NCBI GenBank assembly: GCA_002682825.1
Contig: NOKP01000022.1
Location: forward strand, 186,001 to 250,000
DNA: 64,000 bases
Source: Neonectria sp. B-13
Lineage: Eukaryota > Ascomycota > Sordariomycetes > Hypocreales > Nectriaceae
Direction: 5' to 3'
Under the pieces are notes generated by a model. That model searched no databases. It worked only from the letters and a program-made list of their open reading frames with translations, and was not told the DNA's origin. A program made the translations under genes and the position numbers. Shown in pieces: positions 247 to 59,601 of this stretch; the stretch's first letter is position 1; the number at the start of each line of letters is the position of its first letter.

Positions 247-251
247 AAAAA
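247..251 (-). terminator. Pol III T-run after tRNA-Phe
   Basis: Five consecutive T on the minus strand, nine bases past the tRNA 3' end; the usual form of a eukaryotic RNA polymerase III terminator. Confidence 0.6.
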
Positions 252-260
252 GTAAAGGTT

Positions 261-387
261 TGCGGTTTATGTGGATCGAACACATGACCTTCAGATCTTC
301 AGTCTGACGCTCTCTATGAGATTGTTAGACTTAATGTGCTGGAGTTTTTCCAAGTTTTGCAACTTACCCCAACTGAGCTAAACCCGC
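261..387 (-). tRNA. tRNA-Phe (GAA) with a 54-nt insertion in the D-loop
   Basis: On the minus strand the gene begins GCGGGTTTAGCTCAGTTGGG (387-368), is interrupted by 54 bases (367-314), and resumes AGAGCGTCAGACTGAAGATC down to the discriminator A at 261. With the insertion removed it is 73 nt. The D-stem is GCTC/GAGC, the anticodon arm is TCAGA-CTGAAGA-TCTGA with anticodon GAA, and the T-arm is ATGTG-TTCGATC-CACAT. The acceptor stem pairs except for a G5-A68 opposition. The A box (369-380) and B box (273-281) are both intact. There is no intron at the usual 37/38 position. A T5 run follows at 251-247 as a likely Pol III stop. Identity as Phe is clear. Whether the gene makes a mature tRNA depends on removal of the insertion; a pseudogene is the alternative. 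Confidence 0.85.
314..367 (-). other. Intron-like insertion inside the tRNA-Phe D-loop
   Basis: The 54 bases start GTAAGT, end CATAG, and carry CTAAC at 328-324 with the branch adenosine 11 bases before the 3' end. These are the three spliceosomal signals seen in the protein-coding introns of this window, and the length is typical of them. Excision restores GTTGGG-AGAGCG, the normal D-loop/D-stem join. On the plus strand the same stretch begins CT and ends AC, so the signals fit only the tRNA strand. The position (between A and B boxes) and the signals differ from canonical tRNA introns. Confidence 0.75.
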
Positions 388-1677: not shown

Positions 1678-3925
1678 TTACTCATACAAGTCCTTGTCAA
1701 CATCCCCATCCTTGGACGCATGGGGACTCGTCACCTTGATACCATTCTCCAGCCTCGAGAGCGTCATCACGTAGCTCTTGTGGTCGCACCAGTTGCGCAC
1801 CATCTTGATGGCGTTCTTGATCTCGCGACCATTCAGCTGCCAGAGTGCCAGCTCGGAGATGTCCTCATCGTCAAGTGGTTTGTCGGCCGGCTTCGTATCT
1901 TCGCCTTCCTCAGTCACATCCGTCACCCGGGCGGCCTGCTCGGGCAGGCGCTGGAGGAACTTGTGCCAGATGCTCTCGCGGGCCTCTCGGTTCAGGGCCT
2001 GGAAGAGCAGGTGCAGGCTCACGCGGCTGCGGAAGGCGGTGTCGATGGTGTGGTAGAGGTTGGTGGTGAGGAAGATGATGCCGCGGAAGTACTCGAGCTC
2101 GCGGAGGAAGATGCTGACGAGTTCGTTGCGGTGGATATCGTTGGGGTTGCGCTCGGCCATGAAGACGTCGGCTTCATCGAGGAGAATGACGGCGTTCCAC
2201 TCTGTCGCCATTTCGAAGACACGCTTGATGTTGGCACCGAGTGTAGCTGCGTTGATCCCTAGGTCCTCAGCCTGCAGGTAAAAGAGCGGGCGATGCGTGC
2301 GGTCCGCAACGGCCTCGGCCGTGAGCGTCTTGCCGGTGCCCGGAGGACCAGACAACAGGATGATGAGACCCTGACCCTTTCCCACAATGACGTCCTCCAT
2401 GACCGCCGAGGAGCCGTTGGAGAGGTTGTGGTTCTCAACAAATGAGAGGACGAGATCCTTTTGTTGATCATCGTAAACGAGGTGTGAGAAGGCCTGGTCG
2501 TTCCAGATCATGGGCTCAATATCTTCAATGTAGAATTGGACTAAGAGGGATCACAGTTAGCATAGCTTTTTCGTCCAGTATTGTAGGACACTCACCCCAG
2601 AGCTTGTTCTTGAGGGCGTATCCCCCGACCATCTCGGACATAAACCCAAGCTCCTCGGGCTTCTCGAGCATCTCCTTCTTATTTCTCTCCGATTGTTTCT
2701 CAGTTAACCGCTTCTTCTGGGTCGACTGAGTTTTAGGTTGCTGAGACACCTCGTCCTCGTCTTCGTCATCTACTATTCGTCGCCGACGGTGGACATGGTT
2801 CCGCGCCGTTTCTGGGTCCTTGTTTTCCCGCTTGCCGAGGGCGAGGTGGTACTTGTTGTATCCAACCACGTCAATGAGAACGCGGCCCTCGACGTTGTGC
2901 TTCTCGATGCAGTCCTTGTCTCCGCCGTGCAGGGCAATGCCGGTGTAGCAGCTATATTTGAGGCCCTGCAGGTCCAGGGCCTTTCTCCCTCGGGCTACAA
3001 GGCGCTTCATGATGCTCTCTTGGTCCTGGTGGAAGTCGAAGGGATAATGACGTAGTTCACGAATAGGGTTGTTCCCGGAGAACTGACGGATAGGGAGTGA
3101 CTTGTCCTGCCAGATAAACTCCTCGCCGTTGAACGTCATGAACTTGCCGTTGATCAGGAGAAAGGACCCCTCGGTCTTCTTGACATACTCGGTGTCCTCG
3201 ACCTTGCAGATGAATTCCGAGTTGAGACCGTAGCTGTACACAGTGGAGCCACGGGGAAAGAGAGTCCATGCCGTCTTGAAGTCGATCAAGCCGCCGGCAA
3301 GGAGATGGCGTCTCTTGGTCTTTATTTCGCTAAACATGTCGTCGAGGAGCCTGAGGAACAGCTGTAGGTAGCCTTTGAGCGCATCGTCGACCGGGGTCTG
3401 GCGGTACAGCTCTTTGATCTCATCCTGGCAAAACCAGAGGCTTCGGAAGGGCTCCGTAAATTCGGCAGTGTCGTGGACATCGAGGTAGACGTTTTCTTTC
3501 TTCAGGATAGGCTCCAGCGCGGCCACCAGTATAGGGTTCTGGATCTCAATCTGGTGGTACTTGAGGGGAAACCGACCACCGACGCAAGGCCTCTTACGGT
3601 CCTTGATCTTGTAGACCTTGATGGCTACGCGGTCTTGGGCGCGAGCGGCAGACTTGGACAGCTGCTTGGGCGGGTAATCAACCCACTCAAAGCTGGAGGC
3701 ACTCGAGTTGCGGCCCTCGTAGAGAGTCTTGATGGTGGTGTCAGAGCCAAAGGTTGGGTCCTTGGAGGGCATGGCCGTCTTGGGATCATCCTCGGAGGTG
3801 GAGGACTCAAGATCGAGGGGCTTGTCGAGGGGAGAGTCCTGGCGGCGGGTGATCTTGCAGCGCCATTTCCAAACGAAGTCGGAGACGTCCTCGCGGTCAA
3901 TGTCGCGAATATCTCTGAGGCCCAT
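1678..3925 (-). CDS. AAA+ ATPase with N-terminal DUF7025-type region
   Basis: Two exons (3925-2596 and 2540-1678) joined across a 55-base intron (GTGAGT, branch GCTAAC, CTTAG) give 730 residues. The C-terminal third is a classical AAA module: Walker A GPPGTGKT at 508-515, Walker B AVILLDEAD at 560-568, sensor LTTN near 601 and the arginine-finger region FRSR near 613. The first 440 residues match the layout of a large fungal family, often annotated simply as AAA family ATPase with a DUF7025 domain, and include a basic/acidic linker (RRRRIVDDEDEDE) before the ATPase. The start at 3925 was chosen because upstream in-frame sequence reads like a leader. The family is soluble and its substrate is unknown; it is expanded in filamentous ascomycetes. 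I infer ATP-driven remodelling but no specific pathway. Confidence 0.88.
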
Positions 3926-53661: not shown

Positions 53662-55853
53662 CTACTTGTCTAGCCCAAGATCCATGACCCTTACCAACCC
53701 TGATCCCAATGCCGCTGCTGCCCAATATCCGTACTCCTCGTTCGGATTCCATTCCACCGCTGTGATTCTCGTCAACGGCTCATAGACGACCGCTCGCGTA
53801 GGATCTGACGGACCAGCTCCATCCTCCTCTTCATCCCCGACCACTTCCTCGGTGTCCTTCTTCTTCACCTTCTTGCCCTTCTTGACTGGAGGCTTAAAGT
53901 CCGTCTTGGGGTTGACGTTTCGTTCCAAAATAAAGCCCTGCAGAACCCGCGATACTCCGCGCACCCCGGCTGGCGACTCCTTCGAGAAGAATTTTGCCGG
54001 GCGGTGTTCGTGCTGGAAGACCCTGATGCGGTCAGAGGGTTCACGTTTGGTAGTAAAAAGCTCGACTTGTGGGTTCAGCGCCCACAGCGAGCCGTCCATG
54101 GACCCGATGAGCAGATACGGGTGCGTACGCCCGACAGAGAGACATGAGGGAAAGCTTTGGCCGGTGAAGACTCGGCGAGCAACCGGGTATTGAGCATGGT
54201 GCATGAAGCCAATCTGGGTGTTAAGCACGCCGGCGGAGGGATACGTGGAGAAGAAGCCAAGGAGGTGATCGCTGTATCCGAGAAGGTTGGGTTGCGAGGC
54301 GACAGTTAGGGCCTGGACCTCGGTTGTCTCAACACTGGGATCCCTCAGGTCGATGAGCCTCACAGTCCCACCAACGGGGTAAGAGGCGATGATGTACGGC
54401 ATGGACGGGTAGCCTGAGACGAGGTCGAGGATGATGTTGTGGTGGACAGGGTGTCGCGAGAGGAGGCGATTAGGACGAATGGACCAGAGGGCGATAGTGC
54501 CGTCCGTGTAGCCTACGACGAGGCGGTTGAAGTTGATCCACGTGAGAGTCGTTGCCTGGATGTCCTCCTGATCCGGGAATTTAAGTGTGGCCACTGGGTG
54601 CTGTGCCTTGTCTGGAAAAGAGTTAGGAATAACAGAGTAGCGAGGATAGAAATGCTAAGCAAGGAGGAAGATATCTCACCATAACTCCCGTCTCCATCGT
54701 CACCCGCCTCAACGACATACACATTCCCATCCCCACAAAGAATCGCCAAGTGCCCAAAAGCAGGACTCCATTTCACCCTCCGCGCGCGGCCATGCTCGAG
54801 ACATATCGTCCTCCGAAGCCTCGGCCGCTTGGACGAGGGCCGCACCAGCCCATCGTCGGCCCGCTCCCCGACAAACTCCCATAGTTGGACGACGCCATGT
54901 CTCTGGAAGTCGGGCTTCACGGACTCCTGCTCAAAATCGTAGTGCTCTTGGTCGGAGTGCGGGATGATGCATAGCGCCAGGAGTTGGGTCGTGTCGGGCT
55001 TGTGTTGCGGTGCCCAGTCCATGCTGGTGACGATGCCGCCGGCGTCAAGCATCCACCCTGCGACGATTTTGGTATCGCACTCATCTTGGTCGAACGGGAG
55101 GCCGGATTGCGAGAGTGAGTATGCATCGCCAGGCACAAAGTTGATTTCCCGCTGGGAGTCGTGCGGTCCTATCAACACTGGCATTGCTCTTCGCTGGAAA
55201 CGGTAAGGCTGAGCTTCGTCGTCCGACAACCGAAGCAGAGAATCGCCCTGCGGCATGCTGCTCTTCACCCGCTCGAACCAATGCTCAGCATTGGAAGCCT
55301 CCCTCTCGAAGAAGTTCGGCGACCACACGCCTCTGTTCGTCTGCCCGTGCTCATCCGCCTTCTCCCGCGGTGGCAACACGGTCCAGTCCATCCAGCGATC
55401 CAGCATCCCATGCGCCATCTTAACACCGCCCTCGTGCCTCCCGTACCACATGTCCACGAGCGCATTGCCGCGGAGACCGCGATCGTACGGCCCGCAGTAC
55501 GCTCTCACGATGCGCCCGTCCGCCGCCACGGGCTCAACGTCCAGATAGCCCGTGACACCGATTGCGCGGAGATTGAACGGGCGGATAAGCTTGATGCGCT
55601 GGCGGGAAAACCGGTCGGGGACGCCTTCGGGGTCGCTCACGGAGGCGTCGGACTCGACGACCTCGCGCTCAAAAGCGAGGTCATCTTCCTCGACGCTCTC
55701 CTCAGCTGCGGCCGCTGCGGCCGCTTCGAAATTGTCGTCGTCAGCGTCGGCTCTCTCGTCGCGCCTGTGGACGATGTCTTCTTCCGAGCTTCCATCGAAG
55801 TCGTATTTCTCGACCGCGTAGCTCTTCGTGCGATTTGACCGGCGCGTCCTCAT
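53662..55853 (-). CDS. TFIIIC-type transcription factor subunit (Tfc6/Sfc6-like, WD repeats)
   Basis: Two exons (55853-54680, 54611-53662) across a 68-base intron (GTGAGA, CCTAACTC, TCCAG) give 707 residues. The N-terminus is basic (MRTRRSNRTKS), then acidic and Ala-rich (EAAAAAAAEESVEEDD). From about residue 120 on the protein shows WD/beta-propeller-like strands: VWSPNFF, VTSMDWAPQ, VQLWEFVG, VKWSPAFGHLAILCGDGNVYVVE, VVGYTDGTIALWSI. A Lys-rich insertion (KKGKKVKKKD) sits near the end. The arrangement matches the fungal TFIIIC subunit Sfc6/Tfc6, part of the complex that recognises B boxes of tRNA genes for RNA polymerase III. Assignment rests on overall pattern, not on a diagnostic residue. 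The start at 55853 was preferred over an in-frame ATG farther upstream. Confidence 0.72.
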
Positions 55854-56258
55854 GGCTGGGCGGGTTGTGAGTTTTGCGGGTGAGAAGTTGGTGTAGAAAG
55901 TCAAGGTGAGTGGGCAAGTACTTGGTGGGGCGTCGGTGAACAGCTTCATTGTCGCATTGCTCGACTTCAAGCAACACAACAGCTACCTATAGCCAGCAGG
56001 AAGATATAACAGCTGAGAGTTAAATCTAATTTCATCATTATTAATTAATTCAACCTACATGTTTGTTTGGGAACATGCTTTGAAGATGGTTGGTATCACA
56101 TGGACTAGTCTTTCAGTTTGAGTGGGAGCAGACGCTTGTAGTACAATGGGAGAGAGTGAGAAAACCACAAAACATTTGGTGGATTGATTTCTAATAGGCA
56201 AGCTTGTCTCCTTTAGAGTCATCGGACCCTATGTGATATGTCACTAAGTTAAAGAAGC
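55854..56258. other. Intergenic, about 400 bp
   Basis: Promoter of the TFIIIC-like gene and 3' UTR of the BTB gene, both minus strand. AT-rich near 56,020-56,060 (TTAATTAATT); no other feature. Confidence 0.5.
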
Positions 56259-58515: not shown

Positions 58516-59601
58516 ATGGACTCCTTCAAGAAAATCGACAACATGAACCTCGCCCGGGCCATCCGCAAAACCATGAAGCATGGAGCGGAGACGTCTGTCA
58601 TCATTTCCATGGATGATGCGTATGACTACAACATCCTTGGCGACGAAGTTGACCCCGACGACCTCTACGAAGAACTCAAGTCGTCCCTTGAAGAGTTCGC
58701 ACAGTCTTTGAAGAGTTCGTCCATCGATGAGAGGGCCTTAGAGAACAAAATAAGCGACACGTTGGCACGCATGGTCTTCGGTTCCAACATGATTGAGGGT
58801 GCAGGAGGCGGATTGGATACCACCCTAAAGCTATGCCGAGCCGTCTTCCAGGGAGAGGGAGAGAAGATCCCGGAGATCCAGGAAGGAGACACAGACTATG
58901 AGACCTTACAACGCGACTTGGCACAGAAAGGTATGCCACACGACACCGACGCTGTTCTCCGAAGCCATCACGAGATCGTCCAGCATGCCAAAGCCACAAG
59001 CTACATCATAGATGAGATCTGCATCAACGGCGAAGATATTTCAGAGGAGGCAATCCTACAGACACATCGCATCTTGACCCACAAAGTCGACACCGAACAA
59101 GGCATGTGCTGGGCAGAATATAGCGGCGTCTACCGACAATGCGATGTGAGTGCTGGTCTTCACCAGTACATGGATCCCCGCCTAGTTCCTGGTGCAATGC
59201 GGACAATGATTCGATCTCTCAACAGGGATATTCAGGATGCTATCGACTCTGGAGAGATCGATCCTATTGTCCTCGCAGCGAAATACAGCCACACTTTCGT
59301 GAACATCCACCCCTTCGTCGACGGAAATGGACGTGTCTGTCGCCTTATTTTGAACGCCATTTTGCTCAAGTACAGTGGCATTGTCGTTTGCATTGGCGAG
59401 GAGGAATCCGATAGGGAGAAGTATATGGAGGTCGCGGTGGGTGCATCAATGGCGGAGGCATCAGCTCGCGAGGAGGACATGGACGGTCTGAACGAACACC
59501 ACAAGCCGAAGCATTACAAGGGCCTTGCATCTTTCATACTCCAGCATGCGTGCGACAGTATGCGGGAGCTTACTGATTTACTCAAGAAGGACCAAGCTTA
59601 A
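58516..59601 (+). CDS. Fic-domain protein (predicted AMP-transferase/AMPylator), 361 aa
   Basis: Intronless 361-codon frame starting CC-ATG-G. The catalytic Fic motif HPFVDGNGR is complete at 265-273, with the invariant His and the phosphate-binding DGNGR. Upstream, SNMIEG at 90-95 matches the S/T-x-x-x-E-G/N inhibitory helix, placing it in class II (self-inhibited by a Glu that blocks ATP). EYSGVYRQ at about 201-208 corresponds to the flap region that positions the target. Fic proteins generally transfer AMP from ATP to hydroxyl side chains. The N-terminal 60 residues are family-unrelated and partly acidic. No signal peptide or membrane helix, so a cytosolic or nuclear location is likely. 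It is flanked by two BTB genes. Origin by horizontal transfer is possible, as Fic genes are scattered in fungi, but unproven here. Confidence 0.9.
   Translation: MDSFKKIDNMNLARAIRKTMKHGAETSVIISMDDAYDYNILGDEVDPDDLYEELKSSLEEFAQSLKSSSIDERALENKISDTLARMVFGSNMIEGAGGGLDTTLKLCRAVFQGEGEKIPEIQEGDTDYETLQRDLAQKGMPHDTDAVLRSHHEIVQHAKATSYIIDEICINGEDISEEAILQTHRILTHKVDTEQGMCWAEYSGVYRQCDVSAGLHQYMDPRLVPGAMRTMIRSLNRDIQDAIDSGEIDPIVLAAKYSHTFVNIHPFVDGNGRVCRLILNAILLKYSGIVVCIGEEESDREKYMEVAVGASMAEASAREEDMDGLNEHHKPKHYKGLASFILQHACDSMRELTDLLKKDQA

Follow-up and report, generated by a model that had tools for sequence, protein, structure and literature searches.

The window analysed here, a stretch of DNA of 64,000 nt, contains a tRNA-Phe gene with a short insert in the D-loop. 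The features of this locus are as follows.

261..387, minus strand: tRNA-Phe(GAA) gene, 127-nt precursor; exact removal of the insert leaves a 73-nt sequence recognised by ARAGORN as tRNA-Phe(gaa)
368..387, minus strand: exon 1, 20 nt (5' strand of the acceptor stem, 5' strand of the D-stem, D-loop up to G20), identical in 8 of 8 genome copies
369..380, minus strand: A box TAGCTCAGTTGG, immediately preceding the intron, from the sequence
314..367, minus strand: 54-nt intron of spliceosomal type between G20 and A21, from the removal test and comparison of inserts
362..367, minus strand: 5' splice site GTAAGT (GTANG in 17 of 17 distinct inserts)
324..328, minus strand: branch-point element CTAAC, within GTCTAAC ((C/T)TAAC in 17 of 17 distinct inserts)
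314..316, minus strand: 3' splice site TAG, at the end CATAG (AG in 17 of 17)
261..313, minus strand: exon 2, 53 nt, from the rest of the D-loop to the discriminator A73, 100% identical in 8 of 8 copies
298..300, minus strand: anticodon GAA, in an anticodon loop that has no 37/38 intron (ARAGORN on the spliced sequence)
273..281, minus strand: B box GTTCGATCC, within exon 2, from the sequence
247..251, minus strand: TTTTT, probable Pol III terminator, 9 nt past the gene (all seven distinct tRNA-Phe copies have T5-T7 at +8 or +9)

The 54-nt D-loop insert with GTAAGT, CTAAC and CATAG, and the complete tRNA obtained on its removal, had both been predicted originally and were confirmed. The branch-point adenine is 11 nt from the end of the insert, and the junction has a one-base ambiguity (G). 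ARAGORN calls nothing in the unspliced gene, and the Rfam match to it is distorted: it scores 30.1 bits (cut-off 29), and its 5' half consists of intron sequence. The combination of the three splice signals occurs in 2 of 383,676 stretches of 53-55 nt on both strands of the window, one of them being the tRNA-Phe insert.

Two introns of protein-coding genes were mapped confidently in the window by comparison with protein relatives, their coordinates being counted by hand.

2541..2595, minus strand: mRNA intron of an AAA-ATPase gene, 55 nt, GTGAGT..GCTAAC..TTAG
54612..54679, minus strand: mRNA intron of the TFIIIC subunit gene tfc6/sfc6, 68 nt, GTGAGA..CCTAAC..CCAG

Both have GTGAG donors and CTAAC branch sites and are of the same form as the tRNA inserts. 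A candidate intron in a TRAPPC12 gene was left out, as its borders are uncertain. Proteins of Neonectria punicea, N. ditissima and N. magnoliae match the TRAPPC12-like protein at 90-91% identity, and an N. ditissima protein matches the TFIIIC subunit at 85%, which places the fungus in the Nectriaceae, close to Neonectria. The product of tfc6/sfc6 acts on tRNA promoters; that this gene (53662-55979, minus strand) shares the window with the tRNA-Phe gene is probably a coincidence. The window also contains a single open frame of 361 amino acids with a Fic domain (58516-59598, plus strand), here in a fungus.

The genome assembly comprises 60.9 Mb in 123 contigs, with mirrored stretches present. 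When the whole assembly was searched with the 73-nt spliced tRNA, exon 2 matched at 100% identity in eight places, and no match spanned the splice junction. Reading of these loci showed that all eight are interrupted at one and the same base, the inserts being 53-55 nt long, and an independent pattern, designed for the T-arm and acceptor and allowing up to three mismatches, returned the same eight places. Two of the copies form a mirror-image pair centred at half of contig C56, where, with a single fixed offset, 7458 of the 7725 positions compared agree with their mirror image; the flanks of these copies are identical over 60 nt on the upstream and 40 nt on the downstream side. The pair was counted once, giving seven distinct genes. 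A self-mirrored look, with tRNA and pattern matches paired symmetrically, was observed in contigs C56, C50, C72, C105, C45, C59 and C47, and such contigs are probably an assembly artefact that inflates gene counts. Exact patterns of the Phe junction had no matches in a collection of viral contigs and a collection of genome contigs, neither of them fungal.

Patterns built on the A box were used for other tRNAs. The first returned the eight Phe copies only (three matches in the reversed control), and two further ones had no matches (controls 0 and 1). These patterns demand two free bases before GG and miss boxes such as TGGCCCAATGG. We considered this null result as evidence against other interrupted isotypes and rejected it, as the pattern was at fault: a pattern combining the B box with the intron signals, and omitting the A box, found two more families. 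It matched 39 places, namely the eight Phe copies, one tRNA-Arg, one tRNA-Gly and 29 others that were judged by eye; the reversed control gave 44, and thus the raw count shows no enrichment. A wider intron pattern matched 124 places against 83 in the control, and nothing from it was used beyond the Phe copies.

Removal of 54 and 51 nt from the tRNA-Arg(ACG) and tRNA-Gly(TCC) genes, respectively, yields 72-nt tRNAs that ARAGORN accepts. One DNA search with both spliced sequences found seven copies of the former and three of the latter; all ten were read and all are interrupted. The same search found no match across the Arg or Gly junction, although diverged copies could escape it. This arrangement in two further families lay beyond the view of the original prediction. 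After removal of the inserts, ARAGORN recognises tRNAs in the window Phe gene, in all seven Arg copies and in one Gly copy (L113); the other Phe copies have exons identical to that in the window, and the other two Gly copies (both labelled L120) have the same exons by pattern. Exon differences among the Arg copies are confined to one of them (L119) and amount to two bases. The B-box pattern is blind to GTANGC and GTANGA donors and to TTAAC branch sites, and thereby to six of the seven Arg and two of the three Gly inserts, so still more isotypes besides Phe, Arg and Gly may be affected. Four of the Arg(ACG) genes are located within 3.5 kb (G000:C39:3117895-3121455), and the three Gly(TCC) genes stand in tandem within 0.6 kb (C43:270880-271515); the introns in both clusters are unlike each other.

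In all three families the insert lies beside the GG of the D-loop: after G20 in Phe, after G19 in Arg and after G18 in Gly, this numbering being our own reading with a one-base ambiguity in Phe and Gly. The lengths of the 17 distinct inserts range from 51 to 57 nt. All inserts start with GTANG (GTANGT in nine, GTANGC in six, GTANGA in two), contain a branch element (CTAAC in 15, TTAAC in two) whose adenine is 11-13 nt before the end, and finish with AG (CAG in 11, TAG in four, AAG in two). In one Arg insert (L116) two motifs overlap, TTAAC at 16 and a later CTAAC at 12, and the latter was counted. The weaker signals are thus the two AAG ends, the two TTAAC elements and the eight GTANGC or GTANGA donors.

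The interiors of the inserts have diverged. Within families their mean identity is 0.39 (Arg), 0.44 (Phe) and 0.53 (Gly); between families it is 0.36-0.37, and interiors that had been shuffled gave 0.36 (60 pairs sampled). In a subfamily of five tRNA-Phe inserts, 3 of 25 columns are variable at the ends (the first 6 and last 19 columns, a split chosen after seeing the alignment) and 26 of 30 in the interior. Conservation of the ends with divergence of the interiors indicates that the splice signals are under selection and that the introns are old relative to the divergence of the gene copies. The inserts combine what is expected of U2-type spliceosomal introns: the donor, a branch site near the acceptor, the terminal AG, a drifting interior, and length and form like those of the two mRNA introns mapped in the window.

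The folding of the interrupted precursors was also considered. The whole window precursor folds better than all 200 of its dinucleotide shuffles, whereas the intron alone does not. With shuffled interiors (n = 200), the numbers folding as well as the natural precursor were 4 for C56, 10 for C45, 24 for C43, 6 for C42, and 43, 104 and 143 for the three C40 copies; the seven Phe precursors thus have no common fold. A conserved helix between the end of exon 1 and the intron was rejected, as the observed pairing is reached by 1417 of 2000 shuffles. Pairing of the 3' segment of the intron with the anticodon arm was matched by 2 of 2000 shuffles over the seven Phe inserts, a signal that comes from five related copies. 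In these copies (C45, C43, C40) the segment CCTTCACTGRC is conserved between the branch site and the acceptor. Both strands of the anticodon stem are possible pairing partners of this segment, which might thereby stop early folding of the precursor, but this prediction is rather weak.

The interrupted genes look like active Pol III genes, judging by their boxes and terminators. Exon 1 contains the entire A box in Phe and Arg, and the A box of Gly shares its final G with the start of the intron. The B box belongs to exon 2 and, in the seven distinct tRNA-Phe copies, is 98-100 nt from the A box. All 17 genes have a run of at least four T starting within 20 nt past the gene end; it is at least five T long in 15 of them and four in two Arg copies (L116, L117). 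In all seven distinct tRNA-Phe genes the run consists of 5-7 T at +8 or +9. The added length is not unusual here, as an ordinary tRNA-Ser gene has a 47-nt intron in the anticodon loop.

U6, another Pol III gene, provides a comparison within the same genome. When 47 of 3129 candidates were scored, two U6 genes were over the Rfam cut-off. One of them (L025, contig C83) is uninterrupted. The other contains an intron.

G000:C1:5177376-5177481, minus strand: U6 gene (L026) with a 55-nt intron of spliceosomal type, from the sequence

This U6 insert has the form GTGAGT..CCCACTAAC..ACCAG with an ACTAAC branch site and lies within the conserved stretch ACGATAC/AGAGAAG. It contains a B-box-like element GAGTTCGAAAC; a B box inside the U6 introns of Schizosaccharomyces was reportedly described by Frendewey in 1990. 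The SRP RNA gene, with 280 nt matched for a 293-position model, has no room for such an intron.

Taken together, these observations lead us to the following reading, to which we assign a probability of about 0.92: the window contains a functional Pol III tRNA gene whose insert is a true spliceosomal intron of the U2 type, all tRNA-Arg(ACG) and tRNA-Gly(TCC) genes found are of this kind too, and the supply of the three tRNAs would depend on the spliceosome. The observed basis is the anatomy of the genes, the interruption of all copies found, the conserved signals set against diverged interiors, the promoter boxes and the T-runs. The original suggestion that the Pol III gene contains an intron of spliceosomal type thus has strong sequence support from 17 distinct D-loop inserts sharing their signals in three tRNA families, while its companions, recent insertion and a dead copy, are not borne out, as detailed below. 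Several points count against the spliceosomal reading: exon 1 of the interrupted genes is only 17-20 nt long, some of the inserts have the weaker signals listed above, an uninterrupted copy may be missing from the assembly, and Pol III transcripts are without the cap and the polymerase tail that aid splicing.

One alternative, which we regard as very unlikely, is that the inserts are atypical tRNA introns cut by the tRNA splicing endonuclease and ligase, like the D-loop introns of archaea and Cyanidioschyzon merolae. The endonuclease has no need of GT, a branch site or AG, and yet these are the conserved parts. The strict 3-4-3 bulge-helix-bulge is absent from all 17 inserts, the central helix having 0-2 of 4 pairs. 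A relaxed scan for this structure gave 9 of 10 pairs in five of the seven Phe inserts and 8 of 10 in the other two, which could be taken in favour of the endonuclease, but such scores are common by chance: of 2000 random inserts, 362 reach nine or more pairs and 1196 reach eight or more.

In favour of this alternative, the endonuclease route itself should be present in this fungus, given the ordinary 37/38 introns of other tRNAs. A tRNA family search, in which 63 of 1967 candidates were scored, gave 56 tRNA matches, which are the best-scoring tRNAs and no census. The D-loop is unbroken in all of the 46 matches that were read (48 ARAGORN genes at 43 loci, two seen twice). Introns in these other tRNAs are in the anticodon loop, 7-47 nt long and, by eye, without spliceosomal signals. 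ARAGORN seeks introns in the anticodon loop only, so this position is partly by design; full-length matches nevertheless show intact D-arms. These ordinary introns indicate that a normal splicing route exists for the tRNAs that carry them, while the inserts described here sit at the GG of the D-loop and not at position 37/38. Extracts from a review (PMC3978253) bear on both sides: position 20/21 is the junction site of one type of C. merolae permuted tRNA, with D-loop introns known in that alga, and the nucleomorph of Guillardia theta has many ectopic tRNA introns without a defined bulge-helix-bulge motif, but eukaryotic endonucleases are described as having likely co-evolved strictly with position 37/38.

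The introns could also be spliceosomal but reside in genes read by Pol II, or inside longer Pol II transcripts, with splicing coupled to that transcription. Splicing is normally coupled to Pol II, which favours this possibility; we nevertheless find it highly improbable. The A and B boxes and a short T-run are in their usual places, and U6, likewise a Pol III gene, has such an intron here. No common Pol II promoter was seen. The main alignments between five 3-kb tRNA-Phe loci (one containing all three C40 copies) span 151-188 bp, indicating that these dispersed loci have little in common beyond the gene, and identity in the 60 nt upstream is 0.32-0.55, the mirrored pair excepted.

It is hardly credible that the interrupted copies are pseudogenes and that functional tRNAs are made from genes not seen. 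In favour of this, ARAGORN makes no call on the unspliced window gene and the assembly may be incomplete: with 123 contigs and mirrored stretches, an uninterrupted copy could have stayed unassembled. However, all copies found in three families are interrupted, and a genome-wide search for a normal tRNA-Phe gene, the finding named at the outset as fatal to the interpretation, returned none. The window gene, proposed as possibly dead, is one of seven distinct genes with identical tRNA bodies and has intact promoter boxes and terminator. Exon 2 is the same in all eight Phe copies, six of the seven Arg copies have no exon differences, and promoter boxes, T-runs and splice signals persist throughout. 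Finally, reading the Phe codons and the Gly codon GGA requires such tRNAs, and these codons would be unreadable without them.

A recent burst of introner-like elements into tRNA genes, which would agree with the same D-loop spot being struck in three families and had been put forward originally, is scarcely tenable, since all seven distinct tRNA-Phe genes found carry the insert, the interiors within this family differ widely (identity 0.16-0.93), those of different families are no more alike than shuffled ones, and a search at E up to 10 with the window insert alone as query, including 4 nt on each side and with very common words skipped, matched only itself and the two mirrored C56 copies and none of the five other Phe inserts, so that there are not many near-identical copies of it in the genome.

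Returning to spliceosomal introns in working Pol III genes, the following course of events can be proposed. Guided by the A and B boxes, which are intact, Pol III would make a precursor in which the intron sits where the A box ends and adjoins the conserved GG of the D-loop. The spliceosome would recognise the GTANG donor, the (C/T)TAAC branch site and AG, and the intron would leave as a lariat. Its removal would restore the D-arm; as the D-arm cannot form otherwise, the introns presumably must be removed. End trimming and modification would then yield a normal tRNA-Phe, with splicing presumably coming before RNase P. As the assembly yielded no uninterrupted copies, the supply of the three tRNAs in the cell would depend on the spliceosome. 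That the introns of three families all sit where the A box ends points either to a spot that spares the promoter or to a site that insertion prefers. On a wider scale, it is quite likely that in this lineage of Nectriaceae several isoacceptors (at least Phe-GAA, Arg-ACG and Gly-TCC, possibly more) are made only from genes whose D-loop is split, adjacent to the A box, by spliceosomal introns of old origin that the spliceosome removes.

In textbooks, tRNA splicing by endonuclease and ligase is separate from mRNA splicing by the spliceosome. Here three whole tRNA families apparently need the spliceosome for a job that textbooks assign elsewhere. If this is true, some nuclear tRNA introns form a class that the spliceosome excises, and translation capacity is tied to splicing capacity. 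Confirmation would mean that a pre-tRNA lacking a cap and having a first exon of 17-20 nt is a possible substrate of the spliceosome, and that splicing defects lead directly to tRNA shortage. It would also provide a natural test of spliceosomal intron gain in non-mRNA genes, with three families hit at the same spot beside the A box. Genes with D-loop introns can escape standard tRNA detection, as ARAGORN misses the window gene, and tRNA counts from standard annotation could then be wrong for such fungi.

No precedent for spliceosomal introns in tRNA was found in the open-access literature (bioRxiv being outside this scope), and such absence is not proof. The canonical eukaryotic introns at 37/38 are similar to the inserts in that they reside in Pol III tRNA genes and are removed before the tRNA functions; they differ in position, in signals and, presumably, in the machine that removes them. 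The tRNA-Phe of Neurospora has an ordinary intron in the anticodon loop, so the present lineage would have lost that intron and gained one in the D-loop.

Introns of mRNA type in U6 snRNA genes were reportedly found in Schizosaccharomyces pombe and others by Tani and Ohshima in 1989 and 1991. The fungal U6 introns share with the inserts described here the presence of a spliceosomal intron in a short Pol III gene. The difference is in the host, which here is not U6 or U3 but tRNA of three families, tRNA-Phe, tRNA-Arg and tRNA-Gly. The U6 RNA belongs to the spliceosome, and the view given in an extract of PMC10484740 is that reverse splicing near its catalytic nucleotides gave rise to the U6 intron. 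The introns of fungal U3 snoRNA genes, as given in part of PMC5832005, have a GTRWGT donor, an RCTRAC branch site (129 of 138) near the acceptor and a YAG acceptor. Thus they too interrupt a short gene for a structured RNA and follow the same signal rules, although U3 is not a tRNA and its introns average 92 nt. The rRNA genes of lichen fungi, according to an excerpt of PMC8527467, contain spliceosomal introns, of 57 bp in the case tested; this again is an ectopic spliceosomal intron in a non-mRNA gene of an ascomycete, albeit in rRNA repeats. Archaeal and C. merolae tRNA introns resemble the inserts in their D-arm location. However, in the portions of the literature cited, those introns are tied to the bulge-helix-bulge and the tRNA endonuclease, whereas here the strict motif is absent and the spliceosomal signals are present.
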